Of a stretch of 24,360 nt of DNA, positions 1-18,291 are shown in pieces. The notes beneath the pieces were generated by a model that had not been told where the DNA came from, made no database searches, and saw only the letters and a list, made by a program, of their open reading frames with translations. A program made the position numbers and the translations under genes. Within the stretch, counting starts at the first letter, position 1. Each line of letters opens with the position of its first letter. The DNA is from a virus, in the IMG/VR virus record IMGVR_UViG_3300030333_002896, positions 4,167 through 28,526 of that record; one strand, given 5' to 3'.

Positions 1-3000
1 AATCGCTTCCGATTCTTCTTTAACATATTGTTCATAACCTTCTCTTGATATATCACGATCTATCCCTTCCATAAATTCTTGATCTTCTTTATAATATTGT
101 TCAAAAGATTTTATTTGAGGTATCTGTTTCTGCCATTGTATCTGATCTACATTTTGTCTTAGATCGTTTTTCCATCTATCTATTTGTTGGTTGGAAGTAG
201 TCCAGGCAATGCGATCAAAGTTATTATCACTGGCGTGGCGTAGCATTCTTTTCATTATTAGTTCTATCCAGCCGTTACCTTTGAATGGAGCGTTGGGAAC
301 TTTGCTTATATTTAAATTTTTTAAAGCATCTTGAATAGCACTTTTTTCTGTTGTAAACACACCACTCGCACTACCACCAGATGGATTTTTGATTTGATAT
401 CTATTACCACCAGAATAGCTATCAAGATTCTTATCACTATCAAGAGCTTGTTCTAAAATTTTATACTCTCCACTGGCTTTCCATTTTTTTACAGTATAGC
501 CCTCTGGTAATTCTGTTAATTTTTCCTTATACCCTTTTTCTCGCCCTTTTGTGTGCCAATCGGACTGAAGCTCTTCTATGAATAAAATACGCTCACCAGT
601 AGGTGATATGCGGGTATTAAAGCGGACATGAGCTAAGATATTTGGTTCATCGTAGTGACTTGTTATAAAATCATCTTTTGATTTAGGTAACGTCAACAAC
701 AATTCACGATAATCTTCTTTTTCTCCAGGAAGCTGATAGGATGAATATTGAGTTGCTTCTGATGATACACTACCAATAACTTGTTTTACATCATCTTCTG
801 TAGCAACTCCTCTTTCTAATATTCCCGAAAGAGATTTATACCCCATATACTGATCAGTATCAATTCTTTGAATTGTGATATTACCACTTTCAGCAAACCA
901 TAAATTATCCTTGTAGCTAATATATTCTTTATCTTTATTCTTATAATATTTAAAATCAGAATATGTACCATCTTCAACAAATTCTAAAGTTTCACCATCG
1001 TCTAAAGCATTTCCTGGCGTTTCATCTGGATATGCTGGATCGAGCTGTTCAAACATTTTAATAAATTCATCTTTTGATAATGACTTTTCTTCATCCAAAG
1101 TATAAGATTCACCAAGCGTAACATCTTTGATCTCGATCTTGTTTGCCTGGATCCATTCCTGGAGTTCTTCTTTGGTAATCTTCAGCTTACCTTTTAATAA
1201 GGATTCCAGATCTAACCATTCAATTTCAGGAGAATTATTTGTAGCTTTATTTAACCAGTTAATAACAGACTGGCTTTTCATCGTGGGTGGAAATTTATCT
1301 GTAACTACTCGTTCTGCTTTAGAGTAGAAAGTTGGTGCTATGCGATAGGAAGGTTTTGGTTTAGCTTTTAGCTGTTTTTGGAGCTTGTCTCTATCGGCTT
1401 TTCGGCTGTAGAAATCTGGTAAGAACTTATTGAACGTCTTTGGGAGACTTTTGTTGGTCTTACTTTGGTAGTCTTGGACAATTTTAATAAATCTTTCACG
1501 AGCTTTTTCTCGGCTGGATTCATCTGTGATAAATCTAAATTGTCCATTTTCTTCTGAATAGTTTTCATAATTATACTTTTCCGCTATTGCGTGTATGAAG
1601 TTAACATCAATATCTCCAAAGTTCCACAATAAAATATCTTGTTTATTTCCTCTGGATCGTATTGTTTTATTTTGTACACCTAATTTTGTTAATGCACCTT
1701 TTAAAGTTTTAAGATTTGTTTTTGGTATTGTTATTTTTAATAAAGAATCTTTTCCATCTGGATCACCAATAAATGTTGTAACATCAATTTGATTAAACAT
1801 CAGTCCAGTTAATGCTCCACGATATTCTAAAACTTCTGAATCTTGTTTACCAAAAAATCTGGTAACCATTGATGGTTCGTCACCGTATTCTTCTGTAAAA
1901 CCTACAGAGCTTCTGGTAGCTGTACCTAATCCCAATTCTTCATCTAACTGAGATACAAACTGCCTGGCTTTAAATTGTCTTTCTCCTTCACTGCGATCAA
2001 CAGCTTCTTCTGGTGTTATAGTATCAGTTTCTCGGCTAAAAAATTGATAGTCGGGGTTAGGTGTGCCTGTAAAAACATCTTGCCCTATTTCAGCCATTTC
2101 CATTAATTGCTTTGAAACATTACTTTCATCTGCTGTCATCATAAAATTTGTTTGCGTGACCATCATCCCCCAGTTCTTTTTTCTCATATCTGTATCGGGA
2201 AGATCTGCTATTAAATCATCAATTGGGATTGGTTCTTTTAATTCTACTAATGTGTCAAATATTTGCTCTGCTGGATATACATCGTGTTTTTTAAAACGAT
2301 CTTTACCAGTACGAATTTCTTTTAATGTACCTACATAAATAATTTTACGTCTTAATTGTGGTGAATCTGGCTCTGCATTATCTAATGCAATTTGAGTAAG
2401 ATTAATTTTTTCTTTTTTATCTTTCTTTGCTTTGTTTTTATTTGCTTCTTGTATCTCTTTATTTACAATACCAGATATAACTTGAACATTGTTATCATTT
2501 TCTTTTAAAAGTTTATTTAATCTGCGTTTACCAATTGCTTTAGCTAATTTTTCTTTTACTCTATTTTGAAATGATGGATTAGCAAGTTGGCTACCTTTAA
2601 TATCATCGTAAGCAATAACAGCAACTGTATTAAAACCTTCTCTACCATTTTTAACTAATTTCGTTGCACCCGCTTTTGATAATTGGAATCCTTGAAAGTT
2701 TTCAGTATATCGTAAGCCAAATGGATTTAACTTACCATCAAGATCCCTGGCTACCATATCCGCACCAATAACAAACACACCCACAGGATCAACTTTACCT
2801 ACCTCACTAATACGATATGTAACGCTACCGTCTGGAGTAGCCTTACGACCTTCTGCTTTTGCTACTTGCTGAACCTTCTTAGCTTGTTTAACCTTTTTCC
2901 CTACAGTTTTAAAGTCTGTAGCTTGTTCTAATTTTTGTATTAAAGATTCGGGAACCTTGCCTTCACGAATTGCTTTACGAAGTCTGAAGGAGTCTCTAAG

Positions 3001-4803
3001 GATGAGTTTAGCTTGTGCAACAAAGCGGTTAAATACATCTCGGAGTCTGGCACCGATGGATTGATGGACTTTTCCTTGTGTCGCAAAGCGTACCGCCATT
3101 GAACTGAACCATTCTTGATTACTTTCTCCTGTGTCTGCTTCTCCTGTTGCTTCGTGATAATTTTTTCTTTCTTCTGTAATTTCATTTTCAAATTCCTCTC
3201 CTCTATTTTCTACTTCTGCATTATAAAATACCTCTGACATTTCTTCACTAACTGCAACAAATTCATCTGCCATACGGTCTGTTGTACCCGCTGTTGATAT
3301 GCGGATCACACCACCAGATGTACGCCCTACAACCATTAGATTTTCTGGATTTGCATCTTCACTAATACCGTGTTCTGTTAGTATTTCTTTTACTCGTTCA
3401 TCACTAAGCTCTTCATCTTTAATCTCATCAGCCAGTGTACGATCTAAATATTCACGCTCTATTGTAACGCCAGACTCTGACTCTGCCTTACTAATCAGCT
3501 TCCCTACAAAATCAGTTCCTTCTTTTTGTTGCTGTTTAATATTCATCTCTGATGCAAGTTTGCGTACATCTTGTTCTGTCTCTATTGCATCAACACGGCT
3601 TTGTAATTCATCTGCTTCTTGTTGTTGTGCTTCTAATTGTTTACGCTGACTGCGTACTTGGATCGCTGTAGGAGCAGATAATGCACCACCAGATCCCGCA
3701 CCAACAATATAACTATCTATAGCACCTTCAAAAAGCTCACGATTGGGATCTTCTCCAGTTAGCTGTGCATTTAAATTTTGCATTACCGTAGTAGCAAATT
3801 CTTCCCATCCTTCTTGATTCATTGCTTTTGGTACAATATATCTACTTGTTTTATCCTGGAATGTTTTCTTTATTGTCTCTTTTAATACTTCATCACCTTC
3901 TTTACGCCCAATAGTTCTTGCAAGGTCACTACGCACTTTTTTAAGTGTACGCCCAATACCAGCAGATCCCATTTGTTCAAATACACCTTCTGATAAACCA
4001 TCAACTAAAGCATTTAAAATTCGAGTATCATCAGCCATTTCTGGCATTTCTTCTAACAAGGTCGCATTCTTTGAGCCACCAGTTACCGCAGTAACAATTG
4101 GCACCATTACTTTAGGGGCTAAACCATAATATCCACCAGCCATAATAGAAGCAGTAACGGGAATAGATTCAACAATACTTGAAACAGTAAGTCCTAATGC
4201 ATCTACAATATTACCTTCTTTTATATAATCAGTTATTCCTTGATCATATCTGGTGTTTTGTTCACGGTAATGATCTGCCTGTTCCTTGTAATATGTTGCT
4301 ACTGGATTGTTAATTAAAAACTCTTCCATTTCCCTGGTGCCACTATCCATAAACTCTAAACCAGGTATTTTAGCTAATCCTTTTTGCGGTAAAGATGCTA
4401 AACTATAAATGAATCCAGGAGCCGTAGCTAAACCGTGTCCTAACCGTGCTGATCCAGAAGCAAGTGATTCGTATAATGTTTCTGAAAATGGTTGTTTTTT
4501 TTCTTGTTGATTTTTAACAGGACTATACTCTTGCATAGGTCTGCTAATATTGCCACCACGCACCCCACGATCAAAATATCCAGGATCATACGTTTTATCA
4601 AGTACAGAACGCTGAACCTCTGGAGATTCATTTTCAATCTGCTTTTCTACTTTATTGATACTCCCAAGAACTTTATCTGGTTCTTCAGAAGTTATAATAG
4701 CTTCCTGGCGTTTACGTTCAAGCTCCAGGTCTTGCTGTGCTTGATCTAATAAATCATCAATGTAATTACGAGGTAATTGTTGTGGAGCAAATGGATCAGC
4801 CAT
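1..4803 (-). CDS. Giant multidomain ('large polyvalent') phage protein, 3' end outside window
   Basis: The frame is open from ATG at 4803 to the window edge, giving 1601 codons with no stop, so the C-terminus is missing. It starts in a TAATG overlap with the upstream gene. Seen: a Gly/Ala-rich hydrophobic stretch near residues 200-238, a second near 361-381, then a Gln/Glu-rich coiled-coil-like stretch to about 421. From about residue 1150 there is a block I recognise from very large phage proteins: PTFYSKAERVV, then LPG..EDYRELLLTLP, EELQSDWHTKG (Q1413, D1415, W1416, H1417), then a WIELIMKRMLRHA segment (W1512) and FDRIAWTT. Such proteins commonly lie at the end of podovirus head/tail operons and are thought to enter the cell with the DNA; the function of this block is unknown to me. 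Inference: an internal virion/ejection protein whose hydrophobic segments may act on membranes. Domains between residues 430 and 1150 are not identified. The reading frame is certain; the role is not. Confidence 0.88.
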   Translation of the reverse strand, partial: MADPFAPQQLPRNYIDDLLDQAQQDLELERKRQEAIITSEEPDKVLGSINKVEKQIENESPEVQRSVLDKTYDPGYFDRGVRGGNISRPMQEYSPVKNQQEKKQPFSETLYESLASGSARLGHGLATAPGFIYSLASLPQKGLAKIPGLEFMDSGTREMEEFLINNPVATYYKEQADHYREQNTRYDQGITDYIKEGNIVDALGLTVSSIVESIPVTASIMAGGYYGLAPKVMVPIVTAVTGGSKNATLLEEMPEMADDTRILNALVDGLSEGVFEQMGSAGIGRTLKKVRSDLARTIGRKEGDEVLKETIKKTFQDKTSRYIVPKAMNQEGWEEFATTVMQNLNAQLTGEDPNRELFEGAIDSYIVGAGSGGALSAPTAIQVRSQRKQLEAQQQEADELQSRVDAIETEQDVRKLASEMNIKQQQKEGTDFVGKLISKAESESGVTIEREYLDRTLADEIKDEELSDERVKEILTEHGISEDANPENLMVVGRTSGGVIRISTAGTTDRMADEFVAVSEEMSEVFYNAEVENRGEEFENEITEERKNYHEATGEADTGESNQEWFSSMAVRFATQGKVHQSIGARLRDVFNRFVAQAKLILRDSFRLRKAIREGKVPESLIQKLEQATDFKTVGKKVKQAKKVQQVAKAEGRKATPDGSVTYRISEVGKVDPVGVFVIGADMVARDLDGKLNPFGLRYTENFQGFQLSKAGATKLVKNGREGFNTVAVIAYDDIKGSQLANPSFQNRVKEKLAKAIGKRRLNKLLKENDNNVQVISGIVNKEIQEANKNKAKKDKKEKINLTQIALDNAEPDSPQLRRKIIYVGTLKEIRTGKDRFKKHDVYPAEQIFDTLVELKEPIPIDDLIADLPDTDMRKKNWGMMVTQTNFMMTADESNVSKQLMEMAEIGQDVFTGTPNPDYQFFSRETDTITPEEAVDRSEGERQFKARQFVSQLDEELGLGTATRSSVGFTEEYGDEPSMVTRFFGKQDSEVLEYRGALTGLMFNQIDVTTFIGDPDGKDSLLKITIPKTNLKTLKGALTKLGVQNKTIRSRGNKQDILLWNFGDIDVNFIHAIAEKYNYENYSEENGQFRFITDESSREKARERFIKIVQDYQSKTNKSLPKTFNKFLPDFYSRKADRDKLQKQLKAKPKPSYRIAPTFYSKAERVVTDKFPPTMKSQSVINWLNKATNNSPEIEWLDLESLLKGKLKITKEELQEWIQANKIEIKDVTLGESYTLDEEKSLSKDEFIKMFEQLDPAYPDETPGNALDDGETLEFVEDGTYSDFKYYKNKDKEYISYKDNLWFAESGNITIQRIDTDQYMGYKSLSGILERGVATEDDVKQVIGSVSSEATQYSSYQLPGEKEDYRELLLTLPKSKDDFITSHYDEPNILAHVRFNTRISPTGERILFIEELQSDWHTKGREKGYKEKLTELPEGYTVKKWKASGEYKILEQALDSDKNLDSYSGGNRYQIKNPSGGSASGVFTTEKSAIQDALKNLNISKVPNAPFKGNGWIELIMKRMLRHASDNNFDRIAWTTSNQQIDRWKNDLRQNVDQIQWQKQIPQIKSFEQYYKEDQEFMEGIDRDISREGYEQYVKEESEAI

Positions 4804-5417
4804 TATTTACCATATTTTTTTTCAACATATTCTTCAAGTGCTAATCGTGTTAAATATTCTGCTTTTTTAGGATCTACGCCAGGTCGAAAAAATACTTTAC
4901 TTAATTCCTCTGCTTTATTATTTATATCTTTCTCAATCATAGATTGTCTTTGTGCGTTTTTAAAAGATATGCCTTTTTTTGTTGCTTGTTGTGATATGGT
5001 TAAATCTTTTCTTATTTGATCCATTCTATCTTTCGCTATTCTTGTCGGAGTACCTGGGGATCCTTTTGTATCATCAATATAATCAGCAGAACTCATATAC
5101 ATACTCATAGCATCTTTATTCCCCCGTACATCTCTTGCACGATTTACTGGTGGGAAATCTGATGGATACAACGGCTCACCAGATGTTGTTGCAATACTTC
5201 CTCTGGCTTTTTTTAATTCGCTTAATAAACGAGTCTCTGCTTCTGCTCCAGTTTCCGCTTCTTTCTTTTGAGCTTCTTCAAACTTTTTTGTTTCCAGTGC
5301 TATTTGCTTCTCACGCTTTTTCTTCGTTAAGTCTTTTGCGTATTGCTGTTCAGCAATTTTTTTTGATGAATCACTTAATGATTTTAAAAATTTTAAACCA
5401 TCTATTTTTTCAGCCAT
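4803..5417 (-). CDS. Probable internal/minor virion protein, coiled-coil rich
   Basis: This 204-residue protein is not recognised by family. The N-terminal third (about residues 1-75) is rich in Lys, Glu, Ala and Gln in a heptad-like pattern and should form a long charged helix or coiled coil. The middle is polar with Pro and Gly, and the C-terminus is helical and charged. There is no signal peptide or membrane segment. AGGAG lies 6 bases before the ATG at 5417, and the stop codon TAG of the upstream gene sits inside that site, so translation is probably coupled. It ends in a TAATG overlap with the giant protein. Position between the nozzle gene and the giant ejection-type gene suggests a small internal core protein or a chaperone for its neighbour; this is inference from order only. 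Confidence 0.8.
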   Translation of the reverse strand: MAEKIDGLKFLKSLSDSSKKIAEQQYAKDLTKKKREKQIALETKKFEEAQKKEAETGAEAETRLLSELKKARGSIATTSGEPLYPSDFPPVNRARDVRGNKDAMSMYMSSADYIDDTKGSPGTPTRIAKDRMDQIRKDLTISQQATKKGISFKNAQRQSMIEKDINNKAEELSKVFFRPGVDPKKAEYLTRLALEEYVEKKYGK

Positions 5418-5426
5418 TTTTTACTC

Positions 5427-6233
5427 CTATATAAATAAATCTGGATATAATTGTTTTGCAATTTCATACAGTTTTTGTCTTTCTGCATCGGTAGTACCCT
5501 TTGCAATAAACTCCATAGCTTTTTGCCTATTTCCATCTATTGATTTTGCATCATTTTCTAATTGAGCAATGGATTTTACTGTACCACCTGGTGAAGATGG
5601 ATCTAATCCACCAGTATATCTTTTTTGACCGCTTGGTGTCATATAGCTTCTTACATTTTCAATACCATATTTATTCACCGCATCGGTGTAACTTTGGCTA
5701 CTTGCAGTTGCATCTGCTTTCTGATCCATCGCTAATTTTTCTGCTTGTTGTGCCCTTGCTCCAGAAATACCACTTGCAGTATCAAGCCCAGCAGTAACCA
5801 TACCAATCCCCGCCTGTCTACGTTCTGCCTTGTCTTGATCGACTGCTCTGGCATAATCAAGTTTGGCTTGTCTTTTTGCTCTTTCTTCATCAACATACAT
5901 TCCTTTTGCTGTATCCGATACCGTTCTACGAACATCATTCTGAGCTTCTCTTAGCCCACGCTTTACAGCAACAGAATCCTGGATTCCTCGATTGATAAAG
6001 CTACCCATATATTTATTGGTGGTTGCATCTGCTTGTCTACTTGCTACATTGCCAACTCTATTTAATATAGTCTTTTCTGCTCCTGGACTTAGCATTCCTT
6101 CTTTTCCCGCATATTTTAACTGCCTACCATAAGCAGTGCTTCCAAATTTTGGGCTTAATAATCGTGAACCAGACTTAATCATCTGAGAACCGCCTTTTAA
6201 TAAAATTCCTAATGTTACTGGATCTATTGCCAT
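5427..6233 (-). CDS. Probable internal virion / DNA ejection protein
   Basis: This 268-residue protein begins MAIDPVTLGILLKGG, a short hydrophobic Gly-rich start seen in many podovirus internal proteins. It is followed by a long Ala/Arg/Gln-rich helical region (about 60-180) and a polar C-terminal part with a Gly/Pro/Ser linker near 205-220. A second mildly hydrophobic Gly/Ala stretch lies at about 140-160. No catalytic motif was seen. GGAG of the ribosome site falls within the last codons of the nozzle gene, 4 bases upstream. Between the nozzle gene and two further internal-protein candidates, the place corresponds to the internal core genes of T7- or P22-like phages. Family membership is inferred from composition and order, not from a motif. 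Confidence 0.8.
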   Translation of the reverse strand: MAIDPVTLGILLKGGSQMIKSGSRLLSPKFGSTAYGRQLKYAGKEGMLSPGAEKTILNRVGNVASRQADATTNKYMGSFINRGIQDSVAVKRGLREAQNDVRRTVSDTAKGMYVDEERAKRQAKLDYARAVDQDKAERRQAGIGMVTAGLDTASGISGARAQQAEKLAMDQKADATASSQSYTDAVNKYGIENVRSYMTPSGQKRYTGGLDPSSPGGTVKSIAQLENDAKSIDGNRQKAMEFIAKGTTDAERQKLYEIAKQLYPDLFI

Positions 6234-6237
6234 AATT

Positions 6238-9200
6238 TTACTCCATTTCGATTTGCAGTCTTTCTAATGTAAACGCATTGGTACTTGATGCGGTAGAAAG
6301 TTCAATTTCAAATTTCTTTGCGTACCGTTTGATAGGGAACCGTACAATTCCGCCATCGGCTGTGATTGATTTTGTAAATGAGGCACTTCCCGCCCCATCT
6401 AAGTATAAGTTATAGGTAAGTGTGTCTGTACCAACAAACTGCACAGTACCATACCTTAAAAGGCGTTTACGGTGTAGATCTAAGGGGAATTTCTTTGACT
6501 TCCATTTTGATGTAGATGCATTTGCCGTATCAAACTTAATTATTTTATTATTGGTTTTATCGTAGTCCATTGGGCTACCATTTTCATCATAAGCAAGAAG
6601 GTCTAATACTCCCGTTCCCATATCAATTTTTCGCCAAGTTTGTTTTACATAATTATACGCCCAAACCACTTGCGTAGAGGACACCATCCATTTATAAATG
6701 ATTTCTTGCCGTTCTGAATCAAAAATGCCTTTGATTGCTGTTTTGTCGGTAGCCAACATAAACTGATCATCAATTGCATCAGTCACTTTATCCATCACTG
6801 TTGGAGTTGCGGTAGAACTTGCGGACATATTTGAAGTGATTCTATAAATACCATCGTGATATACAAAATAAATACTATCGTGTACTTCAACCATTCCTTC
6901 AAATGCTACGTTTCCTATGTTATGTTTAGACTCTACAATTGACCAGGACGAAGGATTAACAGGATCGCTGAGATTTAAAATAAAGATTGCCTGGGGTTTA
7001 AAGACCACGAGCCTTCCAAAGATCTCTGCAAGTCCTGTTATTGCTCCACCTTCACGGTCATCAAACTGAATAACATTGCTCACTGGTCTGGTATCGAATT
7101 GATTGATCTCACTATATGCCACCCAGTCATTACGTTCTTCATTCTCATCACCAATATCTAAAAATATATTTCCTAAAAAGAGTCTGCTTTTTACCATTTT
7201 TGCATAACGACCATTCACCCTGGTGGATACAACTGCTTCTCCCCAATGTTCTCCTAATGAGGTTAAACCATCATCGGTAATTTTAATTGTGTATTTATTT
7301 GTTGCTGTATTTTTTATTGTAAGTGTTCCGCCTAATTTCCCTTCATCAAATCCATTACCAGCGGGTAAATTTTTATTTGATTTAAAATGAAAAAAGTTTC
7401 CGTGTGCATTATAAGTGCTTACATCACTTATTTTAAACACACCATTATCATCTGTCTCAATATAGTTCCCAGCAAGTCCTGTTGTTGTAATATCATGGCT
7501 ACTGGCATCTCTCCAAGAATCAAAATCTATATTATCTTCTGCACTATTAGGTGAAACAAGGGGAATCATAAACCCAGCCTTATGAGATCCATAAGCACCA
7601 GAGCTGTGTACTGAAGATTTATTCCCCCCGCCTGTATTATCTTGCCTATCCCAGGAACTACCAAGTTTACGATAAAAACTCCAACTACTATTCCACCTGG
7701 TTGCAGTAAATGCCTTATTTACTTTAACCATATACCAGTTCGTATTGGTCGCTGTAATTGATCTAAATTCTGTATATTGTTTATGTTCAGTTGCAGTAGT
7801 CGCTGGAGATCCTTGTGCCCTGGTAAGTGTTACAGTATTTGCACTTGTATTAATACTGGATACTGTTACTCGCTCAACTGGTTCATCATCATTTGTACTA
7901 CTTCCCCCAGAATTAACTAAAGAGCTATGTGTTTTAGTCCCTAAAAAATAATCAGTTCCATTTGATAAACTTGATGCATTTGTTACTGCGACATTTGTTG
8001 TCGCTGATGAAGTTATATCTGCACTAAGCTCCGCACCCGTTAGTGCATATCCCTGTATCGGTGTAATATCTTGCGTTAATTTACGCTTCCAATTTCCACC
8101 AACTTTTAAAGCGTAACTACCTTCATCACTATTAATAGCAGTTAAGTTTGCACTGCTATCGTGTGATAAATACCCATTAGAATCATAAATATAAACTGTG
8201 TGATCAGTGTTATAATGCATCTCCATAAATTTATCTGTTGTGCTTTGCGTTTCTGCTTCTCGAATAAAATTAAACTCTTGAATCTTTTTGTACGTTTCCC
8301 ATACACCATTATATCGATTAGCACGGTACAAATTAAATCCTGTAATTCGCTTGTTTATCGTTGCAAAATCAATATCAATTGGAATAATTATTTTACTTTT
8401 AGAAATATCTACTACAGTTGGAGCTGGAGAAACCCCACTACCCGCCACAGAAATAGCAACTTGCTCTTTCGATTCCTCTAATAAAGTTTCTTGGGTACCA
8501 TCAAACACGGCTGTTACATTATATCGTATTTCATCTGAATCTCTTAATTCATCTGTTGTTTCAATATACCCCATGTCATCTGATATTGTAAAAGAATTAG
8601 TTAGTACATTACTATAGGCATAGAATCCTGGAGCAATCGTTACCCCTTCATTCATTAATTTTCGATCAATATAACCCAGCCAAATACCGTTAGCACTATT
8701 AGATCCCACTGTGGCAATATCCCCAGGAAGTACCCGTATACTGTCTGAGAAAGGAACAATAGGATTTCGCTGTGCTTTGTGGTAATGTGCCCCAATTGTA
8801 TACTTATCGTTTAAATTTGTCCATTTATAGTCACAACTTCCAGATCCGCCCCAAGAACCAGAACCCCATCCAATATCGGTAAACCTATTTAGCTGTGCCC
8901 TGGTGTCGTTGTTAAGCTCAACACATTCAACCCCATACACCATCATATACGCTTTTGCGTGTTCAAAAAAATAATTTCCACTGGAAAATCCTGTTACCAC
9001 ATCATCAAAGCAAGTTGGGTTCCATCCCTTAAATGTATCATTAGCGTGATTATTCATACTTAATGGTGTTTTATCTACAGGTACTCGATATACTCTTCCG
9101 TGCTGAATTACAGTTGGGCTACCCGATGTAAAATCATTTGTCCCAACTATAAGATATTTAACACCAGAAGGATTGCGATAAGCGTGTTTTAAAAAAGTAA

Positions 9201-10653
9201 CAACCGTTGATGTTGTAAAAGTTGAAGAATGAATATCTGCCCAAGATAATATTACCGTTCCATCGTTATGCGTACTATGCTGAACATATTTACTTCCATC
9301 TCCCTTTTCCATATATTTAACAATGGATTCATTCTTACCAGAGTTTTCATTAAAATGCATTTTTGATACCATATGAAGCTGGTTTGTCAATACCCCTGTG
9401 TCCGCCCAAGTAGAAGATCCGTCCAATGTTCCAGCTAATATATCAGAAAAATGAAACTTATGATTACTGCTATCAGACTCTGCCAATACCAAATATTCCT
9501 TACTCCCACTTACCGTATTTGTAATTGAGGTAATACCTACCCAAGAATAACTGCCTGTATTTGACGGCTCACCCGCTACTGCGGAGATTCCCGATGAAGT
9601 GATCTTATATAGCCCAACGCCTGGATTTAATAGATATAAATTCCCATCTCCAGCTTCATACATATAAGATTCTGTGACTGCATTGGTTGTATGAAAATCT
9701 TCCTGGATCACTGTTTCTGTAATATCTCCGTTTGTTTCAACCGTATATTTAATTAAATGATTCTTATTCGCACTGGGACTTCCTGTCACTCCAGAATAAT
9801 GAACATAAATCCCGTTATTATAGTTACACATACTGGCAACATATAAAGATGTATACGCCTGATAAAGATTGTATTTTGTTACATCTAAAGCAACCGTAGT
9901 GCTACCAGTACCAATTGAATATCTTATTTTATCCTTACTATCTAAATAACTATACAAACAAAGCACTTTTCCATTTAAAGCAAGTGAAGCTATTCGTTTA
10001 AATGATGAAATATTATTGGAAGCATTATCTGTTACATTTAAATGGGTAGAATGTTTTCCCCCAACTGAACCAACTCGACATCCTGTACTTCCCGATGTTG
10101 CAAAAAAACTTCCGCCCCAGGTCGATGCGTTATTGGTATTTACATAATGTTTATTTCCTGTCTTATAATCAATATCATCATAAATATCTGTACCCGCTAT
10201 TGCTGATCCACTATTATCTTTAACATCAACCACCATCACATTGGCACTCTGTGCGTGTCCAGAATCGGAAGCTGTCTCAAAAAATAAAATATTATCTTCA
10301 ATTTGTAAATGATCTGATACGGCTGGTTGAGAAGGATCGTACCAGAATAGCAATGCTTCTTTGGTACTACTGTCAATTAACACCAAAATATATCGATGTT
10401 CCTGGGTAGCGAACTTGTCGGATATAAAAGTAAATAAATTGTAGACCACATAGCTTTTACTGAGCTTGGTATTTAATTGAGATAAAGCAAAATTAGGAAC
10501 ACTGGAAGGTTGTCCCGCTCCAAATGTTTTTTCTAATTTCCCGTCACGAATGCGGAGATTCTCCATATTCTGAGCAATGTGTTCTGGGAGATCTTCTACG
10601 TCTACGTTGGTTACAACTCCGCCAAAGTCTGTTATATCAATAAGTTCTGCCAT
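6238..10653 (-). CDS. Very large tail nozzle/hub-like protein with probable inserted receptor-binding modules
   Basis: This 1471-residue protein starts with DFGGVVTNVDVEDLPEH and a DGKLEKTFGAG stretch, the usual opening of podovirus nozzle and stabilisation proteins (T7 gp12 / P22 gp10 type). The C-terminal 330 residues carry the matching end: WVAYSEINQFD, then a GGAITGLAEIFGRLVVFKP motif (about 1190-1210) and VYHDGIYRI, typical of beta-propeller blades. Between lies a long Ser/Thr/Asn/Gly-rich region. At about 880-955 a module has the shape 'VAVTNASSL..GTDYFLG...VTLTRAQG..AT.H', resembling small beta domains of phage fibres. At 1471 aa it is nearly twice T7 gp12. No separate fibre gene is visible, so the insert may serve adsorption (inference). 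It starts in a TAATG overlap with the adaptor gene. There is no signal peptide or membrane segment. Confidence 0.82.
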   Translation of the reverse strand: MAELIDITDFGGVVTNVDVEDLPEHIAQNMENLRIRDGKLEKTFGAGQPSSVPNFALSQLNTKLSKSYVVYNLFTFISDKFATQEHRYILVLIDSSTKEALLFWYDPSQPAVSDHLQIEDNILFFETASDSGHAQSANVMVVDVKDNSGSAIAGTDIYDDIDYKTGNKHYVNTNNASTWGGSFFATSGSTGCRVGSVGGKHSTHLNVTDNASNNISSFKRIASLALNGKVLCLYSYLDSKDKIRYSIGTGSTTVALDVTKYNLYQAYTSLYVASMCNYNNGIYVHYSGVTGSPSANKNHLIKYTVETNGDITETVIQEDFHTTNAVTESYMYEAGDGNLYLLNPGVGLYKITSSGISAVAGEPSNTGSYSWVGITSITNTVSGSKEYLVLAESDSSNHKFHFSDILAGTLDGSSTWADTGVLTNQLHMVSKMHFNENSGKNESIVKYMEKGDGSKYVQHSTHNDGTVILSWADIHSSTFTTSTVVTFLKHAYRNPSGVKYLIVGTNDFTSGSPTVIQHGRVYRVPVDKTPLSMNNHANDTFKGWNPTCFDDVVTGFSSGNYFFEHAKAYMMVYGVECVELNNDTRAQLNRFTDIGWGSGSWGGSGSCDYKWTNLNDKYTIGAHYHKAQRNPIVPFSDSIRVLPGDIATVGSNSANGIWLGYIDRKLMNEGVTIAPGFYAYSNVLTNSFTISDDMGYIETTDELRDSDEIRYNVTAVFDGTQETLLEESKEQVAISVAGSGVSPAPTVVDISKSKIIIPIDIDFATINKRITGFNLYRANRYNGVWETYKKIQEFNFIREAETQSTTDKFMEMHYNTDHTVYIYDSNGYLSHDSSANLTAINSDEGSYALKVGGNWKRKLTQDITPIQGYALTGAELSADITSSATTNVAVTNASSLSNGTDYFLGTKTHSSLVNSGGSSTNDDEPVERVTVSSINTSANTVTLTRAQGSPATTATEHKQYTEFRSITATNTNWYMVKVNKAFTATRWNSSWSFYRKLGSSWDRQDNTGGGNKSSVHSSGAYGSHKAGFMIPLVSPNSAEDNIDFDSWRDASSHDITTTGLAGNYIETDDNGVFKISDVSTYNAHGNFFHFKSNKNLPAGNGFDEGKLGGTLTIKNTATNKYTIKITDDGLTSLGEHWGEAVVSTRVNGRYAKMVKSRLFLGNIFLDIGDENEERNDWVAYSEINQFDTRPVSNVIQFDDREGGAITGLAEIFGRLVVFKPQAIFILNLSDPVNPSSWSIVESKHNIGNVAFEGMVEVHDSIYFVYHDGIYRITSNMSASSTATPTVMDKVTDAIDDQFMLATDKTAIKGIFDSERQEIIYKWMVSSTQVVWAYNYVKQTWRKIDMGTGVLDLLAYDENGSPMDYDKTNNKIIKFDTANASTSKWKSKKFPLDLHRKRLLRYGTVQFVGTDTLTYNLYLDGAGSASFTKSITADGGIVRFPIKRYAKKFEIELSTASSTNAFTLERLQIEME

Positions 10654-11366
10654 TAAAGATTATTATTTGGATAAATTGGATCAACTAAGCTATTTGAAGA
10701 GCTGTGATCAAATGGTAAGCCTTCACCTACAACTTGCGTTGCTGGATTCTGATTATATTTGCCAATCATCCCGTATGCTCTTTGTTCTGCATCTTGTTTT
10801 CTTGCTTGATTATTTGATAGTCTCCAAAGCTCTGCTTCTGCCAATTCTACTAAAGCATCGTGAAAGATAGCATTTAGATCACTATTAGCAGTTGGAGAAG
10901 TTGCTAATGCTGTTGGCTCTTTAATAAAGTAACAATCCACATTTGCAGAAACATTATAAATATATATTCTGTTTTTAAAGGCAAAGTATACAGGCTCTGT
11001 GGCACTAAAAGCGTAGTAGCCCGTTGTAAAATCTTTTGCCATATCAAAAGATATTTTGCGTATAAAATTGCTGTCAACTACCCGAATACCTAATACGCCT
11101 AATACCCCACCAAATGGCGTAGAATCAAGCGTTGAATTGTCGGGTGCAAAAAAACGCTTAAAATGCGTGTCTACATCGTTATCTGTTGAAAGCGTTATAT
11201 TTTTCTTAATGACTTGTAAATCTGTTAATAAATGAGGATTTAAAAGCTGTATTAGCTTATCCTGTGCAATGTTTAAATAGCGTAGTTTGACTGTATCACT
11301 AAAAAGATCCCCAGAGGTATCTTCCAGGCGATCTCCTAATACGGTTAACATTTCTGCTGTGGTCAT
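10653..11366 (-). CDS. Head-to-tail adaptor (connector) protein
   Basis: This 237-residue protein begins MTTAEMLTVLGDRLEDTSGD and continues with VKLRYLNIAQDKLIQLL. This is the helical start of the phage adaptor family related to P22 gp4 and T7 gp11 (DUF6682-like as I recall it). A beta-rich middle with aromatic residues and a helical region rich in Ala and Glu (about 165-200) follow. Adaptors of this kind bind under the portal ring after packaging, close the channel and dock the nozzle. Position directly after the capsid gene and before the nozzle gene agrees. GGAG lies about 6 bases before the ATG, downstream of the hairpin at 11385-11410. Called from the N-terminal pattern and gene order. 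Confidence 0.82.
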   Translation of the reverse strand: MTTAEMLTVLGDRLEDTSGDLFSDTVKLRYLNIAQDKLIQLLNPHLLTDLQVIKKNITLSTDNDVDTHFKRFFAPDNSTLDSTPFGGVLGVLGIRVVDSNFIRKISFDMAKDFTTGYYAFSATEPVYFAFKNRIYIYNVSANVDCYFIKEPTALATSPTANSDLNAIFHDALVELAEAELWRLSNNQARKQDAEQRAYGMIGKYNQNPATQVVGEGLPFDHSSSNSLVDPIYPNNNL

Positions 11367-11384
11367 AATTTCTCCAGGGCTATA

Positions 11385-11410
11385 CAGCCCCCAGGAAAGC
11401 CCAGGGGCTG
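11385..11410 (-). other. Strong GC-rich hairpin between capsid and adaptor genes
   Basis: On the minus strand CAGCCCCTGGG and CCTGGGGGCTG form an 11-pair stem (nine Watson-Crick and two G-U pairs) closed by a CTTT loop. It lies 18 bases after the capsid stop codon and 18 bases before the adaptor ATG. No U-run follows, so it lacks the mark of an intrinsic terminator. It may protect the capsid mRNA 3' end, mark a processing site or reduce read-through, so that capsid is made in excess over the single-ring adaptor. Stem seen in the sequence; role inferred. Confidence 0.7.
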
Positions 11411-11428
11411 TGATAGTTATTCAGTTAC

Positions 11429-12547
11429 TTAAGCGTAATCCAATGGTGAGTAGAGATCTTCTACAACACAATGGGCTTTTCGGTTGGTGACAACCAAGTT
11501 ACCATAAGTGTGTACCTTCTGCACGAAAGTATTACTCTTTGTATCTTCGATCATATCAGATGCAGTGAACCTTGCACCAGAGTTGAAGAACATATAGAGA
11601 TAGTTCGTGTTCAAGAAATAGATCCTACCATCATTATTATCAGCGATGGTATCAGGACTGTTATCTGCCTGTGCGGTTACGATGTCTTGATCTGCGACAA
11701 TGTCCACACCTCTGTATGACATTCCCATAAAACCCATCTTCGCCATACGATCAGATTCCAAACTTCCACGCTTGAACTCACCCAGTTCTGACTCAATAAG
11801 GTCATAATGGTATTGAGAACATACGATAAGGTCTGGACTTTCTCCTGTTTGTGCTTTTGCATTTGCAATACCACGAGCAAGGATTCTCAAGATATAAGTA
11901 TCTTTTGCGGGATCTTGCATATCTGCTTCTGCTATGAATGTTACACCAGCATCTGGTGAATCAGCAGAATCGTTACCTGATGCATCTGCGAAAGAAGCAT
12001 CTGTTAAGACAGGAGTTTTCCACCAGGAGTTAGATCCTGGAGCAAGACCACCTACTGTAGTTGCATCATCACAAAGTACAGCAACAGGATTAAAAGCATC
12101 TGTAGCCAATGTTCTTGCGAACATATTCTCTGCAACTTTCTTCTCCAACTGCTTCTGAAGGTTTTTTACCTTTGCACCAACAATGTTCTTAATAGCCTGT
12201 GGACTATTCATTAACAAGGTTTCTTCCTTTGTTAAAAGAAAGTGACCAGTTAACATAGTTGGATTATACGATGCAGTCTTTGCGATTTCTGCTATTGCTG
12301 GTGTATAGGACTGACCTGATGATGTACCAAGCGTATGCTGGTCACCCCAAACAGTTGCACCACCCTCTGCATATTCTACTGGCACTACAATTTCACGACC
12401 ATTAAAGGTCTTTGCTTTGCCCTTCAGTATTGCAAGTAGTGGATGAGATTTCTTAAAGATATTATCATACAAAACTGGCATATAATACTGCTGAATAAGG
12501 GCACTTAACGATGCGGATCCTGTTCCGCTTACTACGATATTCGACAT
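11429..12547 (-). CDS. Major capsid protein
   Basis: This 372-residue shell protein is of the HK97-fold size class. Seen: N-terminal LSALIQQYYMPVLYDNIFKK, ILKGKAKTFNGREIVVPVEY, and a helix containing KNIVGAKVKNLQKQLEKKVAEN. Towards the C-terminus are PDLIVCSQYHYDLIE, MGMSYRGVDIVAD and YFLNTNYLYMFF. This layout is shared by many podovirus coat proteins. An excellent AAGGAG lies 8 bases before the ATG, one of the best ribosome sites in the window, fitting a protein needed in hundreds of copies. It follows the scaffold gene and precedes a strong hairpin. No internal frameshift or decoration-domain extension was seen. The C-terminus lacks obvious Ig-like domains. Confidence 0.93.
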   Translation of the reverse strand: MSNIVVSGTGSASLSALIQQYYMPVLYDNIFKKSHPLLAILKGKAKTFNGREIVVPVEYAEGGATVWGDQHTLGTSSGQSYTPAIAEIAKTASYNPTMLTGHFLLTKEETLLMNSPQAIKNIVGAKVKNLQKQLEKKVAENMFARTLATDAFNPVAVLCDDATTVGGLAPGSNSWWKTPVLTDASFADASGNDSADSPDAGVTFIAEADMQDPAKDTYILRILARGIANAKAQTGESPDLIVCSQYHYDLIESELGEFKRGSLESDRMAKMGFMGMSYRGVDIVADQDIVTAQADNSPDTIADNNDGRIYFLNTNYLYMFFNSGARFTASDMIEDTKSNTFVQKVHTYGNLVVTNRKAHCVVEDLYSPLDYA

Positions 12548-12565
12548 ATATTATGTCTCCTTATT

Positions 12566-13537
12566 CTATTGATTATTAAAAAACGAAACAACGTCAATAT
12601 CCTCATAGGTAGATGCTTTTTTATTTGTATCTGCCTTAATACCGACATTCTTCTTTACATTGACTGGTACCGATGGCTTTGGTTTGGGTTCTGGAGCTTG
12701 AGCTTTATTAAAGTTCATTACCTTATAAGCCTCTTCTAAGGTCAATACTCGATCAGTCTTTTCAAAGTTAGACACCGCAAAGTCCAATACTTCCTGGACT
12801 TGCTTATCATTTAACTTATAGGTAGATCGCAATTCACTCATAGATCTTTCCAGTTCCCGCTCTGATTCCATCGCTTCCAGTTTTTCCCTTGCCTCTGTTA
12901 ATTCAGATTCATAGGGATTCGGAAGATCCTTATTATCCATCTGTAGGGACTGTTCATACAGTTGCCCCGCTTCTTTTCCAAGTTCATCCTCAATCGCTTC
13001 TTTTAGCGTTTCGGAGAACTCTTCCGATTCTTTTAATTTATCCACTAACTGCACTAATGGTTCTACCGCCCTACGCTGATCAGATAACTGCTGGGCTTTT
13101 TCTGTATTAGATTTCTGCCACTCGTGTCTGTTCACGCTATCGGTTCGCCACAATTCAATATCTTCAGTAGAGAATTTTAAGCCATCTTGATCTTCGTAAA
13201 CGAAGGAGTCACCAGAATCATCTTCGGACTCTGTACTAACCGTATCGGTTTGCCCTTCTGTCTCTACTTTAGTTTGATCTTCTTCAGTTGTGGATTGGGT
13301 TTCTGCTGTTTGTGTAGACTCTGTAGTCTCAGCCTGTTCTGTAGTCTCTTCCTGGGCGGATTGCTCTTGAGGCTGTTCGCCAAAGAGTTCTCCAGGAATA
13401 GAAACATTGTCGTAATCACCATTAAGTGAGGTATCTTCTCCCACCTGGGTGTCATTACTAAAATTTCCCACCTGGATCTGTTCCGACTCAGGTGTTACTT
13501 CTAAATTATTTGTTCCCGCTATGTTGATTTCAGCCAT
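12566..13537 (-). CDS. Capsid scaffolding protein
   Basis: This 323-residue protein is very acidic and Gln/Thr/Glu-rich (about residues 50-115 almost without hydrophobic residues). A long helical coiled-coil-like region follows (about 140-265), and then a short basic Pro/Lys tail (PKPKPSVPVNVKKN near 285-298). Acidic disordered front, helical rod and basic coat-binding end, placed directly before the capsid gene, is the usual profile of a phage scaffold. AAGGA stands 8 bases before the ATG. The stop TAG is 18 bases before the capsid ATG. Called from composition and position; sequence conservation in scaffolds is generally poor. Confidence 0.85.
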   Translation of the reverse strand: MAEINIAGTNNLEVTPESEQIQVGNFSNDTQVGEDTSLNGDYDNVSIPGELFGEQPQEQSAQEETTEQAETTESTQTAETQSTTEEDQTKVETEGQTDTVSTESEDDSGDSFVYEDQDGLKFSTEDIELWRTDSVNRHEWQKSNTEKAQQLSDQRRAVEPLVQLVDKLKESEEFSETLKEAIEDELGKEAGQLYEQSLQMDNKDLPNPYESELTEAREKLEAMESERELERSMSELRSTYKLNDKQVQEVLDFAVSNFEKTDRVLTLEEAYKVMNFNKAQAPEPKPKPSVPVNVKKNVGIKADTNKKASTYEDIDVVSFFNNQ

Positions 13538-13538
13538 T

Positions 13539-14048
13539 TTAGTTTCCTTTCAGTTGGTCTTTCGACACTGGTTTTGTTGCAAAAAACATAAGTAACACGG
13601 TTCTTTTACCTTTGTGTGGTTCTACCTTATGCTTTAATGGTTTGTCATTTTTTCCAGCAGAGTACATTACCCCACTTAAATAATGGTTATGAACGATCAC
13701 TTCTTGATTATCAATTAAAAACTTTAAATTTCCGCCTGTGAAGCTATCTGGATCAGATAATAAAATAGATGTTCCCAGCTTACACCAAGCCATATGGTTA
13801 TCTACCAGCTTTCCATTCTCTTCCTTACATCCATCATAATGCCATTTATGTCCCCTCGGTCTTGACTCTACACGCCAATAACTTGGAGCAGACAGTATTA
13901 ATTCCTGGTCATCTACAGCCGATTGATAGCGTTTTGCCACTTTTTCTATAATTTTATGAGAAAAGTCGTGACTTTTATGCTTTAATTTGCCCATATCCTT
14001 GAGATCTTGGACTTCATCGAGGTTTACTATGCCTAATATTTGGTGCAT
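13539..14048 (-). CDS. 2-oxoglutarate/Fe(II)-dependent oxygenase
   Basis: This 169-residue protein carries the iron-binding triad of the double-stranded beta-helix oxygenases: H70 and D72 in GHKWHYDG, and H140 in LKHKVEPH. R149 (GKRTVLLMFF) is placed to hold the 2-oxoglutarate carboxylate. FTGGNLKF near 103-110 is the common beta-strand motif. The fold is complete at this length, resembling small prolyl-hydroxylase-like members. The substrate is unknown: a virion protein side chain, a host protein or a nucleic acid base are possible. It is odd in being inside the head operon, between the Lys-rich protein (TAATG overlap) and the scaffold (one base apart), so it is made late together with capsid parts. 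Family call is firm; role is open. Confidence 0.88.
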   Translation of the reverse strand: MHQILGIVNLDEVQDLKDMGKLKHKSHDFSHKIIEKVAKRYQSAVDDQELILSAPSYWRVESRPRGHKWHYDGCKEENGKLVDNHMAWCKLGTSILLSDPDSFTGGNLKFLIDNQEVIVHNHYLSGVMYSAGKNDKPLKHKVEPHKGKRTVLLMFFATKPVSKDQLKGN

Positions 14049-14317
14049 TAATAACTGATCCTATTTTTACCTTTTTTAAAAAATTTATCTGGATACTTAT
14101 CATTTTCTTGATTAACAAGGGTTTTAGATTTCATATGTCCAATATCTCGAATCGACTTAGGATCTTCACCCTTTTTAGATGGATGATATACAAAAGCATT
14201 TCCAGCTTCAGCTAATTTTTTTTTTAATTTTTTTTCTTTAGACTTTGCTAATGCTTTCTTATAGGCTTCCTTGCCTTTCTTTGTATAAGCGTACTTTTTA
14301 CCTTTTAACTCTGGCAT
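14048..14317 (-). CDS. Small lysine-rich protein of the head operon
   Basis: This 89-residue protein has 25 lysines, mostly in residues 5-34, and is strongly basic; the family is not recognised. The start has a clear AAGGAG 7 bases upstream and the end overlaps the oxygenase ATG in TAATG. Its codons include runs of eight and ten adenines (14228-14235 and 14216-14225), which could cause polymerase slippage. The C-terminal half is less extreme, with aromatic and Gly residues (YHPSKKG, DIGHMKSKT). It may bind DNA or the acidic scaffold, or be a minor head protein; these ideas rest only on charge and on its place between portal and scaffold. Its lysines would also be conceivable substrates of the neighbouring oxygenase (speculative). 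Confidence 0.78.
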   Translation of the reverse strand: MPELKGKKYAYTKKGKEAYKKALAKSKEKKLKKKLAEAGNAFVYHPSKKGEDPKSIRDIGHMKSKTLVNQENDKYPDKFFKKGKNRISY

Positions 14318-14364
14318 TATTTATCTCCTTTTAAATTTTGACGGACAATTAGAAAACATACCGA

Positions 14365-16266
14365 TCAAGCCCTTGATTCTGGCATTTGTTCCATCTCACC
14401 TTGTCCGCCAACCATATTTGTAACGGTCATAATTCTTTCTTGCATTTCTGGTGGTAGTGCCTGGAAGTCTGGAGATTCTAATAATCCAGGATTCTGCATT
14501 ACCATTTGTGCTATTGCCTCTTCTGCTTGACCACCAATACCTTCTTGCATTGCTTGAGCTACCAGGCTACCAAAGCGTTCTTGCATACCTTCCGCTTGTT
14601 CTACTTGCTGTTGTGGTGGCATTTGTTGATTACGCACATACCAGTTCTGTATTACTTGCTGTTTATCTGTGATATTTAAAGCGTTAACTACCTCTTCAAT
14701 ACCATACACACCTACCTGGAATAACTCCAATGCTCTTTCTTCATTAGCAACTCTACCTTGTGCATATCTGGATCCAGTAGTAACATCTACATCAAACTCA
14801 CTATCTCGAAGTGAACTGGCGGTACCAGGATTAAATTGTGGACTACCTTCTGGGTTGCCATCAGCATCATATACGCCACCTGGATCAAATTCTGTAAACT
14901 CAAAAGAACCTTCAGCATCTCGCTCTCTAATAGAACGTATCTGCTCATCATAAGTAAGGATCATCTGCACCATATACTCACCGATCTCTTTGGTAAACCT
15001 GGCTACTTCTTTATTGATCTTAAATCTTTGTCTGGTTTGACTGGCTTCCTGGAGTGCTACAATTGCCCTTCCAGAAGTAACACCACCTGGCTTACGTCCT
15101 TGCGTTACATCATTTACGCCTGTAATGTGTTCCATAAACTGACCAACTTGAGCAATGTAATTCTGAATATACCCAGGAATTGGTGGTGGAGTCTCAAAGG
15201 TTACATCTGCTGGATCTACAACAGTTATCTCTTCTCCTGGTGATCCTGTGATCGGTCTGGTTAGTTGACCTTTTGCTCGTTGTGTTACCTTTCTGATCGG
15301 AAAGCCCATTCGCCTAATATTTTCATTGATCGCACTAAATGTCTCATTCATTGCTTTGGTCTGGGTGCGTACTAATTCTGTTTCCCCGATACCCCAGAAG
15401 TTGTGAGGACTTTTATAGTTTGATACCATAAATACTGGCATCCGATATAATTCTAATGGTTCATCAACAATGAGCTTATCTCCAACAACTACCGTGTGCC
15501 TTCCATAGGGATACTTCTCTGTATCTGCTTCATTGCTATAACATTCAATTACTAAGGCTACATCTGCATCTTGAGTTCCTGGATTATCACTTTGTAGTCC
15601 GCTGTCATCTGACTTTTGAAATGCTTTGTAATCATCTAACTTTCCATCGGCATTACATTTAATATCGTATTCTCTATAGATCTTTGATGTTTCCATTGGT
15701 ACAGCAAATAAGAAATACTCTCCCGCTTGAAGATCCAGGTCATTAGCATATGGATGGGGTATAACAGAAAACGGATCAATGACCTGGATATCAAAGCCTT
15801 TAAATGCTCCTGTATCACTTATCTCTGGCAGTATCTGTAAAAACCCATTGGAATAGATCAAACTATCTTTTACTGCCTGGAGTATTTTACCGTACAGATC
15901 AGACTCTTCTACGATCTGAGCAAATCTCTTTTGCATCATATCAGCAAAGTATACATCATTTTGTTCTTTTGGCAATATATCTACTGTTGGCTGAAAATCA
16001 TTAATGATCGGCAAGATGGTTTCAACTACCGCTAAAGGAAAGTTGAATATCATCCTGGACTGGCTTTCAGTGCCTTTACTTGCAGATGCCCAGTGCCTTC
16101 CATAATATAGGCGTTCATTCTTCCGCCATCTATCTGCCTGTTTATCTCTGGCTTTCTTACTGCGATCTAACCAGTTTCTAATTTGCGGTATACGTTCTGC
16201 AACATCTGCTACCTGGTCTAATGCATCACTCTGATCAGCAGATGCGTAATAATCCATTCCAGCCAT
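14365..16266 (-). CDS. Portal protein (P22-like)
   Basis: This 633-residue portal forms the dodecameric DNA channel at one head vertex. Seen: N-terminal helical RNWLDRSKKARDKQADRWRKN and ERLYYGRHW, MIFNFPLAVVETILPIINDF, then the conserved FWGIGETELVRTQTKAMNE followed by NENIRRMG. Further on are IQNYIAQVGQFMEHITGVND and GVTSGRAIVALQEASQTR. The last 100 residues are Gln/Met/Glu-rich helices, consistent with a P22-type barrel. Length and motif order fit podovirus portals. Its ATG overlaps the stop codon of the large terminase gene (TAATG), the classical packaging arrangement. A 47-base gap with no gene separates it from the Lys-rich protein. Confidence 0.93.
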   Translation of the reverse strand: MAGMDYYASADQSDALDQVADVAERIPQIRNWLDRSKKARDKQADRWRKNERLYYGRHWASASKGTESQSRMIFNFPLAVVETILPIINDFQPTVDILPKEQNDVYFADMMQKRFAQIVEESDLYGKILQAVKDSLIYSNGFLQILPEISDTGAFKGFDIQVIDPFSVIPHPYANDLDLQAGEYFLFAVPMETSKIYREYDIKCNADGKLDDYKAFQKSDDSGLQSDNPGTQDADVALVIECYSNEADTEKYPYGRHTVVVGDKLIVDEPLELYRMPVFMVSNYKSPHNFWGIGETELVRTQTKAMNETFSAINENIRRMGFPIRKVTQRAKGQLTRPITGSPGEEITVVDPADVTFETPPPIPGYIQNYIAQVGQFMEHITGVNDVTQGRKPGGVTSGRAIVALQEASQTRQRFKINKEVARFTKEIGEYMVQMILTYDEQIRSIRERDAEGSFEFTEFDPGGVYDADGNPEGSPQFNPGTASSLRDSEFDVDVTTGSRYAQGRVANEERALELFQVGVYGIEEVVNALNITDKQQVIQNWYVRNQQMPPQQQVEQAEGMQERFGSLVAQAMQEGIGGQAEEAIAQMVMQNPGLLESPDFQALPPEMQERIMTVTNMVGGQGEMEQMPESRA

Positions 16267-17576: not shown

Positions 17577-17955
17577 CTAAGTTAAAATTGATAACAGGCA
17601 TCTTAATCTCACCGTTTATCTGTTGTTTTTCTGTAAATAAAGCCAAATGCTTTCCTTGTAATTCACTTGCTTTTAAACTCACATTAAGCTGATCAGAATC
17701 CTCTGCCTTTTGTCTGACTCGCTCAATGTCTTTCATTACTTTTTCTGCTGTAATCTCTAACTTTGCTTCTCGTTTGCTTTTTAGACGGTCTATTTCTTTC
17801 TGTATGTCAACTTTTGTCAACAGCTTACTACCAATCGTCCTGGCTGTTTTTTTGCTGTATCCAGCCCGTATACAAGCCTGTGCAGAGTTAAGATCTACAA
17901 TATACTCTTTGCAGAACATTTTTTGTTTTTCTGTTAACTTTACTTCATTATGCAT
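17569..17955 (-). CDS. terS: Terminase small subunit
   Basis: The protein has 128 residues from the ATG at 17955; a TTG two codons upstream (17961) would give 130, but the ATG is more usual and neither has a strong ribosome site. The front has the Terminase_2-type DNA-binding pattern: LTEKQKMFCKEYIVDLNSAQ, then A..AGYSKKTARTIGSKLL, a helix-turn-helix that recognises the packaging site. Residues about 50-105 form a charged helix (DIQKEIDRLKSKREAKLE) likely used for ring assembly. The C-terminus ends NFNLDD. The start overlaps a 41-codon ORF by 8 bases and the end overlaps terL by 8 bases, placing it within a coupled packaging operon. Confidence 0.9.
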   Translation of the reverse strand: MHNEVKLTEKQKMFCKEYIVDLNSAQACIRAGYSKKTARTIGSKLLTKVDIQKEIDRLKSKREAKLEITAEKVMKDIERVRQKAEDSDQLNVSLKASELQGKHLALFTEKQQINGEIKMPVINFNLDD

Positions 17956-18228: not shown

Positions 18229-18245
18229 ATTTGGGTAGAATATGG
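18225..18245. repeat. Perfect inverted repeat at the head of the packaging operon
   Basis: CCATATT and AATATGG flank a 7-base spacer and are exact reverse complements. One arm contains the ATG of the 52-codon membrane protein; the other coincides with the candidate -10 box of the promoter noted here. It could be an operator for a dimeric regulator, or a weak RNA hairpin hiding the start codon. Seen directly; role inferred. Confidence 0.6.
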
Positions 18246-18268: not shown

Positions 18269-18291
18269 ATTATTTATTATTTTTTTGTTAT

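Follow-up and report, generated by a model that had tools for sequence, protein, structure and literature searches.

Gene content of the window and extent of the giant gene

The window, that is, the whole stretch of DNA analyzed here (24,360 nucleotides), covers bases 4167-28526 of virus record IMGVR_UViG_3300030333_002896, which is 28,526 bases long. Read in the coding direction, its gene order comprises the small terminase, the large terminase, a P22-type portal, a scaffold-like acidic protein and the major capsid protein, followed by a tail-like part (proteins of 237 and 1,471 amino acids) and two small proteins of 268 and 204 amino acids, with a giant gene as the last member of the structural cluster (Table 1). 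This end of the structural cluster is where the ejection proteins of phages T7 and P22 sit.

Table 1. Positions of the giant gene, its modules and tags, and its two small neighbors in the window.
Feature	Window positions	Strand	Remarks
Giant modular gene	1..4803	-	Residues 1-1601 of about 2,800; carries on past the 10-N gap
PTFYS block (module M2)	1..1335	-	GNAT fold predicted from the model of a relative; last ~190 amino acids beyond the gap
Most conserved segment, QSDWHTKGREKGY, residues 1413-1425	529..567	-	Most positions conserved in 46-48 of 48 outside rows
Junction tag 2, SYRIA, residues 1152-1156	1336..1350	-	
Exchangeable module M5 (slot version A, about 490 amino acids)	1351..2805	-	Fold unassigned
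Junction tag 1, TYRIS, residues 662-666	2806..2820	-	
N-terminal module M1, residues 1-661	2821..4803	-	Found in all relatives with the N terminus covered; two main alleles
Second Gly/Ala-rich stretch, residues 364-383	3655..3714	-	Weak
Gly/Ala-rich hydrophobic stretch, residues 202-239	4087..4200	-	Below the usual Kyte-Doolittle threshold
204 amino acid neighbor	4803..5417	-	Candidate small internal/ejection protein, from gene order
268 amino acid neighbor	5427..6233	-	Candidate small internal/ejection protein, from gene order

The 1,601-codon frame described in the first-pass annotation was borne out by our analysis, with an ATG start and a frame still open at the left edge of the window. 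The annotation also had this frame continue beyond the edge, which holds for the protein and not for the deposited frame: ten Ns occupy record positions 4157-4166, directly at the window's left edge, and because of this assembly gap the frame stops there, without running through. The annotation had suggested extending the contig leftward, and on the far side of the gap the same gene indeed resumes, with 1,187 further codons to a stop and 79% identity to residues 1733-2859 of L005, the closest full-length relative (2,859 amino acids), which matches the window part at 55-78%. Together with this relative, 14 further viral loci that encode the whole or part of the protein indicate that the giant frame is a real gene. 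The presence of the ten Ns could still point to an assembly chimera created at the gap; this is extremely improbable, since in L005 the two parts form one uninterrupted gene at 78-79% identity, and in nine relatives the gene is intact. The first viral scan yielded fifteen loci, and scans with alignments of the middle, C-terminal and N-terminal regions added more. The nine uninterrupted distinct relatives encode proteins of 2,347-3,109 amino acids (L001 and L004, which have the same protein length and match map, were counted once; L008 is cut by its contig end), and none of the relatives' genes examined has an N inside. L012 encodes the giant in two overlapping frames (9749-12928 and 12904-19140, encoding 1,060 and 2,079 amino acids), a frameshift that is either a sequencing error or real.

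Searches with the window protein returned nothing in Pfam at E up to 5, in PHROGs at E up to 0.1 or in NCBIfam at E up to 1. The N-terminal region of the giant matched no named phage, and no relatives of its C-terminal region were found in the bacterial genomes searched. This conserved C-terminal region is homologous to about 800 C-terminal residues of protein 74 of the podovirus Tenacibaculum phage Gundel_1, a 2,482 amino acid "structural protein" (E = 2e-13), which has a sub-threshold GNAT match at residues 896-966 and in which, unlike in the giant, no junction tag was found. The term "mass spectrometry", sought as a basis for the "structural protein" label, is absent from the main text of PMC8776804. 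In relatives with longer contigs, a long repetitive or fiber-like ORF lies downstream of the giant gene.

Two other proteins of the cluster deserve mention. The 1,471 amino acid protein (window 6238-10653, minus strand) sits between the head and internal proteins, and an ORF of similar size occupies its place in relatives; it matches no PHROG (E up to 0.1) and no named phage, and its single Pfam match is a chance one (E = 0.28). Since the portal also matches named phages weakly, the group appears to have no close cultured member in the collection searched. A 169 amino acid protein encoded between the portal and the scaffold (window 13539-14048, minus strand) shows no Pfam match beyond chance and has an HYDGC...H...R spacing, which we take to be reminiscent of 2OG-Fe(II) oxygenases.

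Exchangeable modules and the tag at their junctions

Comparison of the giant with its relatives revealed a short tag, [ST]-[FY]-R-[ILVAM]-[ST/A], at almost every module boundary. In its wider form ([TS][FYW][RH][ILVATMS][ASTGN], typically PTFRIS or PSYRIA), it is found at module switches in every intact relative. When all 22 sequences were cut at the tags and then clustered, ten clusters were obtained, and homologous modules proved to be mostly of constant length. Intact copies measure 664-839 amino acids for the N-terminal module, 992-1011 for the C-terminal module, 501-662 for the PTFYS block and 158-247 for an ADP-ribosyltransferase (ART) module. Slot version A has 488-491 amino acids in 10 of 10 copies, and intact slot version B has either 374-376 or 436-447. 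In addition, there are four small modules, of 181 amino acids (in two sequences), 155 (in two), about 185, and 118 (in one). The middle part of the window protein, in which the first-pass annotation left about 700 residues without assignment, is still without one; it can now be recast as the end of the N-terminal module plus a 490 amino acid exchangeable module (residues 665-1154).

The N-terminal module matches L005 at 41-71%, depending on the allele, and is exchanged independently of the cargo. Over residues 1-640, one allele is carried by L005, L003, L007 and L015, and the other by the window, L001 and L006. The two Gly/Ala segments previously proposed to cross a membrane are picked out by a laxer scale, and no Kyte-Doolittle window reaches 1.6 anywhere in the window protein. 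An AlphaFold model of the N-terminal 640 residues (pLDDT 46, pTM 0.23) was left out of the fold search. A degenerate zincin-like site in this module (a helix with EEMSE) was considered and is not claimed, as this model is too poor.

Whole modules are gained or lost at the tags. L007 and L015 are without the block, with nothing else missing, and L002, the window's closest relative, is without both the block and the ART module. Between L002 and the window gene, 3,446 bases of DNA ending at the tag that precedes the block are 92.3% identical; beyond these, L002 picks up the far-side sequence at the tag that follows the block, with an overlap of 12 bases between the two matches. Among the break points of BLAST matches in ten relatives, 93 of 229 fall within 15 residues of a tag (4.5% at random) and 136 are not near one. 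Two of the extra modules have suggestive residues and no Pfam match. L005 carries a 172 amino acid module (residues 697-871) with a spacing of Cys, His and Asp that we assume to be suggestive of a papain-like or transglutaminase-like enzyme. A 155 amino acid module, present in an L107 ORF (residues 711-865) and in the first part of L012 (816-970), ends in MIDGHHRAIIANELG, which to our eye resembles ParB-like nuclease signatures.

In the 12 discovery sequences, 43 tags were counted in 31,284 residues (2.39 expected from shuffles), compared with one in the other 25 window ORFs (0.64 expected); as the sequences are related, such counts represent an excess and not independent events. Since the pattern had been picked after being seen, two further tests were performed, based on word excess and on held-out contigs. 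Among reduced-alphabet four-letter words occurring at least 25 times in ten relatives, P-[ST]-[FY]-[KR] shows the top excess (17-fold) and [ST]-[FY]-[KR]-[ILVM] ranks third. The held-out set (ten ORFs from nine unused contigs) contained 33 tags in 18,863 residues, with 1.46 expected; the exceptions were L121, with a tag inside a module at residue 1090, and L138 (800 amino acids, N-terminal region only), with no tag.

The tag would likely be a protease site or a recognized linker. All six Arg codons (His in two instances) and seven Ser/Thr codons are used among 42 tag instances, which suggests that selection acts on the protein and not on the DNA, and disfavors a role of the tag as a DNA recombination site. 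It is also plausible, at somewhat less than an even chance, that the tags of this same protein are not processed at all and are flexible linkers or last module strands that serve as favored crossover points. This would agree with the recombination of L002 and the window exactly at a tag, with its 12-base overlap, and with the tags that close the ART and block modules, which continue end motifs of other phages (GQPLF...; we take DPRI... to be a further such motif). However, short DNA homology is not kept at the tags, given their codon variety, and the five residues are shared by modules that are otherwise unrelated. Moreover, the three tags included in the L006 model described below all lie in stretches with pLDDT under 50, not in confident strands, in a model of which about a third lies under that value. 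No protease family was detected by Pfam (E up to 0.01) in the other 25 ORFs of the window, which represents an incomplete genome.

Other giants possibly have words of their own, such as LFSR in L087, RFMP in L067 and LFQTP in L039, each of which occurs three times. The tripeptide at the end of the block has 19 extra copies, with 7.3 expected, in 25 of 33 block-containing giants (in the other eight the block end was not found), which weakly supports a general tag in unrelated giants.

The PTFYS block, its distribution and its predicted fold

The motif series that the first-pass annotation had singled out is present as described, with PTFYS at residues 1157-1161, LPGEKEDYRELLLTLP at about 1358-1373, EELQSDWH at 1410-1417, KRMLRHA at 1518-1524 and DRIAWTT ending at about 1536. 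Across 48 outside rows of the block alignment, conservation reaches 90% or more in 72 columns; the window sequence is ungapped in 61 of these and agrees with the conserved residue in 48, its truncated sequence being misaligned at the last few. The best-conserved run, EE-QSDW...G, is preceded by H, N, H and R.

When the block alignment was used to scan viral sequences, at least 348 relatives were detected among at least 600 candidate stretches. The best 80 of these were kept, four of which are contigs already in the family set, leaving 76 loci. In these loci, drawn from the best 80 of at least 348, the block lies within an ORF of at least 1,200 amino acids in 33 and within a shorter ORF in 43; the latter are mostly free-standing proteins of 660-900 amino acids, about as frequent as the giants. 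As the first-pass annotation had stated, the block recurs in very large phage proteins beside varied enzymatic domains: Pfam searches of 18 of the 33 giants identified ART-PolyVal (4), DUF7178 (3), helicase pairs (3), LPD38 (2) and LPD22 (2), and, once each, InPase, MuF_C, methylases, GGDEF and others. The same search on 31 of the 43 short proteins returned two marginal coiled-coil-type matches (one member each) and otherwise none, and the block therefore has no Pfam model. It matches none of the Pfam LPD models and no Pfam GNAT model (E up to 5 for the window, 0.01 for the 31 standalone proteins).

Bacterial genome contigs contain the block as well: it was recognized in 84 of 116 candidate stretches, 80 of which were kept. 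It is present on four Pseudomonas aeruginosa plasmid records of 220-280 kb (NZ_CP115292.1, NZ_CP115286.1, LC685027.1 and NZ_CP111035.1), in two of the four inside a gene that bears the name LPD23 domain-containing. Gene gp34 of Pelagibacter phage HTVC028P also encodes the block and directly adjoins that of a "putative internal virion protein".

All 31 standalone proteins scanned match a small part of phrog_7348, which is labeled endolysin, and in the cyanophage records PP438424.1 and PP438410.1 the block is named "lysin". These labels could be taken to mean that the giant is an ordinary tape-measure, tail or lysis protein, a reading we consider very unlikely. The first member matches positions 1790-2123 of the 2,564-position profile, so the endolysin label can stem from another part of it; none of the 31 standalone proteins has a Pfam lysis domain; and the predicted fold of the block is that of a GNAT. 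The label was probably transferred wrongly to the GNAT-fold block. Nor do the profile searches show an ordinary tape-measure protein throughout, which the first-pass annotation had named as the outcome that would speak against its reading.

To predict the fold, residues 697-1752 of L006, to which the window is 69% identical over this region, were modeled with AlphaFold using a 60-row alignment. The model has a mean pLDDT of 63.9, with values mostly of 70-95 in the block and under 50 in 34% of the model. A Foldseek search against the PDB placed acetyltransferases on top with weak E-values (best 0.08). By VIA-align, the best match, with Z = 9.9 over 131 residues, was the acetyl-CoA-binding domain of mycobacterial ICL2, followed by KacT, AtaT, GCN5 and NatD at Z of 8-9.5, all over the block, and 22 rows had a Z above 8 among the 50 matches listed. 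Judging by their titles, nearly all of these 50 are presumably acetyltransferases or GNAT-fold proteins. Profile searches against the PDB with alignments of the block, the standalone block, M5 and the N- and C-terminal regions gave chance-level matches or none. Based on the model of its relative, the window's own copy of the block would also adopt a GNAT fold. By this prediction, the block shares its fold with GNAT acetyltransferases (GCN5, NatD, SSAT, KacT/AtaT and the ICL2 C-terminal domain), and differs from them in its size (about 500-660 amino acids), its large inserts, its loop sequence and the lack of a Pfam GNAT match.

Following the order of secondary structure elements, the segment QSDWHTKGREKGY would be placed at the GNAT acyl-CoA loop. 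The canonical form of this loop is Q/R-x-x-G-x-G/A, from which QSDWHTKGREKGY differs. Given this difference, and the occurrence of the phage nuclear-shell protein chimallin among the fold matches (Z of 7.2-7.4), the block might have a structural role in place of a catalytic one, which is possible for a GNAT-like fold. We regard this as unlikely, though less so than a lysis function: the polar residues H, N, H, R, E, E, Q, S and D, together with W, are conserved in 47-48 of 48 outside rows, and true acetyltransferases match better than chimallin does.

A variant of the polyvalent proteins

The polyvalent-type reading of the first-pass annotation is largely right, with ART-PolyVal present in relatives and the gene lying in a virion cluster; the window allele itself, as far as sequenced, has no ART. 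ART-PolyVal scored above the Pfam cut-off in five of six full-length relatives scanned (L001, L003, L010, L011 and L013; E = 6e-15 to 4e-22) and was absent by Pfam from L005 and from the sequenced part of the window gene. In L010 there is one more small GNAT module, which scores below the cut-off (E = 5e-5), and L112 has a DUF7699 domain (E = 5e-14). Relatives combine the predicted GNAT-fold block with ART-PolyVal or DUF7699, giving at least two domains of disparate activity per polypeptide, while in the window allele this block is the sole domain identified. No Pfam match to a zincin-like metallopeptidase was obtained in the window protein or in the relatives scanned, the N-terminal model being of low confidence.

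In phages T7 and P22, the structural cluster ends with three ejection proteins, two smaller and one large (gp14-gp15-gp16 and gp7-gp20-gp16, respectively). Compared by position, the giant and its two small neighbors are arranged in a like order, and the cargo modules differ from those sets. Polyvalent proteins have been described as very large multidomain phage proteins with ART, GNAT and uncharacterized domains, encoded in a late virion context and predicted to be injected (Iyer et al., 2017; PMC5512222). The giant shares their size, multidomain build and encoding with virion genes, as expected for a predicted injected protein of this kind. In that article, processing by embedded metallopeptidases is predicted and likened to RNA-virus polyproteins, and a zincin-like metallopeptidase is frequent and not obligatory; the giant differs in that nearly all of its cargo modules end in one tag and no Pfam metallopeptidase was found. 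The same source describes the coliphage N4 virion RNA polymerase, a modular podovirus protein of about 3,500 amino acids that is packaged uncut and injected, and DdrB of phage P1, a large polyvalent protein that is cut before packaging and in which a peptidase domain has been identified. The giant resembles the former as a large modular podovirus-type protein and the latter as a large polyvalent protein, with neither an RNA polymerase nor a peptidase domain identified in it. It is a variant of the polyvalent proteins, of interest for the tag that its module junctions share and for the predicted fold of a widespread domain without a name.

Taken with moderate confidence, the best explanation is that the gene encodes a polyvalent protein that a podovirus-like marine phage makes late and carries in its virions, with swappable, tag-ended cargo that is packed and ejected and whose GNAT-fold domain acts on the host. 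In this protein, fixed N-terminal (about 660-840 amino acids) and C-terminal (about 1,000 amino acids) regions flank a row of exchangeable cargo modules, which in the window phage are the 490 amino acid unassigned module followed by the predicted GNAT-fold domain, and to which relatives add an ADP-ribosyltransferase and other small domains. The conserved ends would most likely direct packing of the giant inside the capsid, from which it would be ejected with the DNA, after which the GNAT-fold domain would acylate a host target. The tags would be processing or recognition sites in exposed linkers, read by a protease or another recognizer, so that modules could act and be swapped independently. 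More tentatively, and on balance doubtfully, the giant could be a true phage polyprotein that a protease cuts at each tag, in the capsid or after ejection, releasing lineage-specific effectors. If so, a shared cleavage site would make the modules pluggable, any tag-ended module being insertable, and other giants may have their own tags, as the words repeated in L087, L067 and L039 might be.

In the portions of the literature on processing, linkers or tags in polyvalent proteins that were consulted, we found no report of such a tag, and the terms "linker", "boundar" and "interdomain" are absent from the main text of PMC5512222. How cut points are marked in phage giants seems to be a question without an answer in the literature, for which the tag provides a simple, testable mark between modules. 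In addition, a predicted fold can now be assigned to a domain that is present in hundreds of phage contigs, lacks a Pfam model and is labeled endolysin in one library. Since the tag gives exact module boundaries, it would allow the clean cloning of unknown, possibly injected domains.
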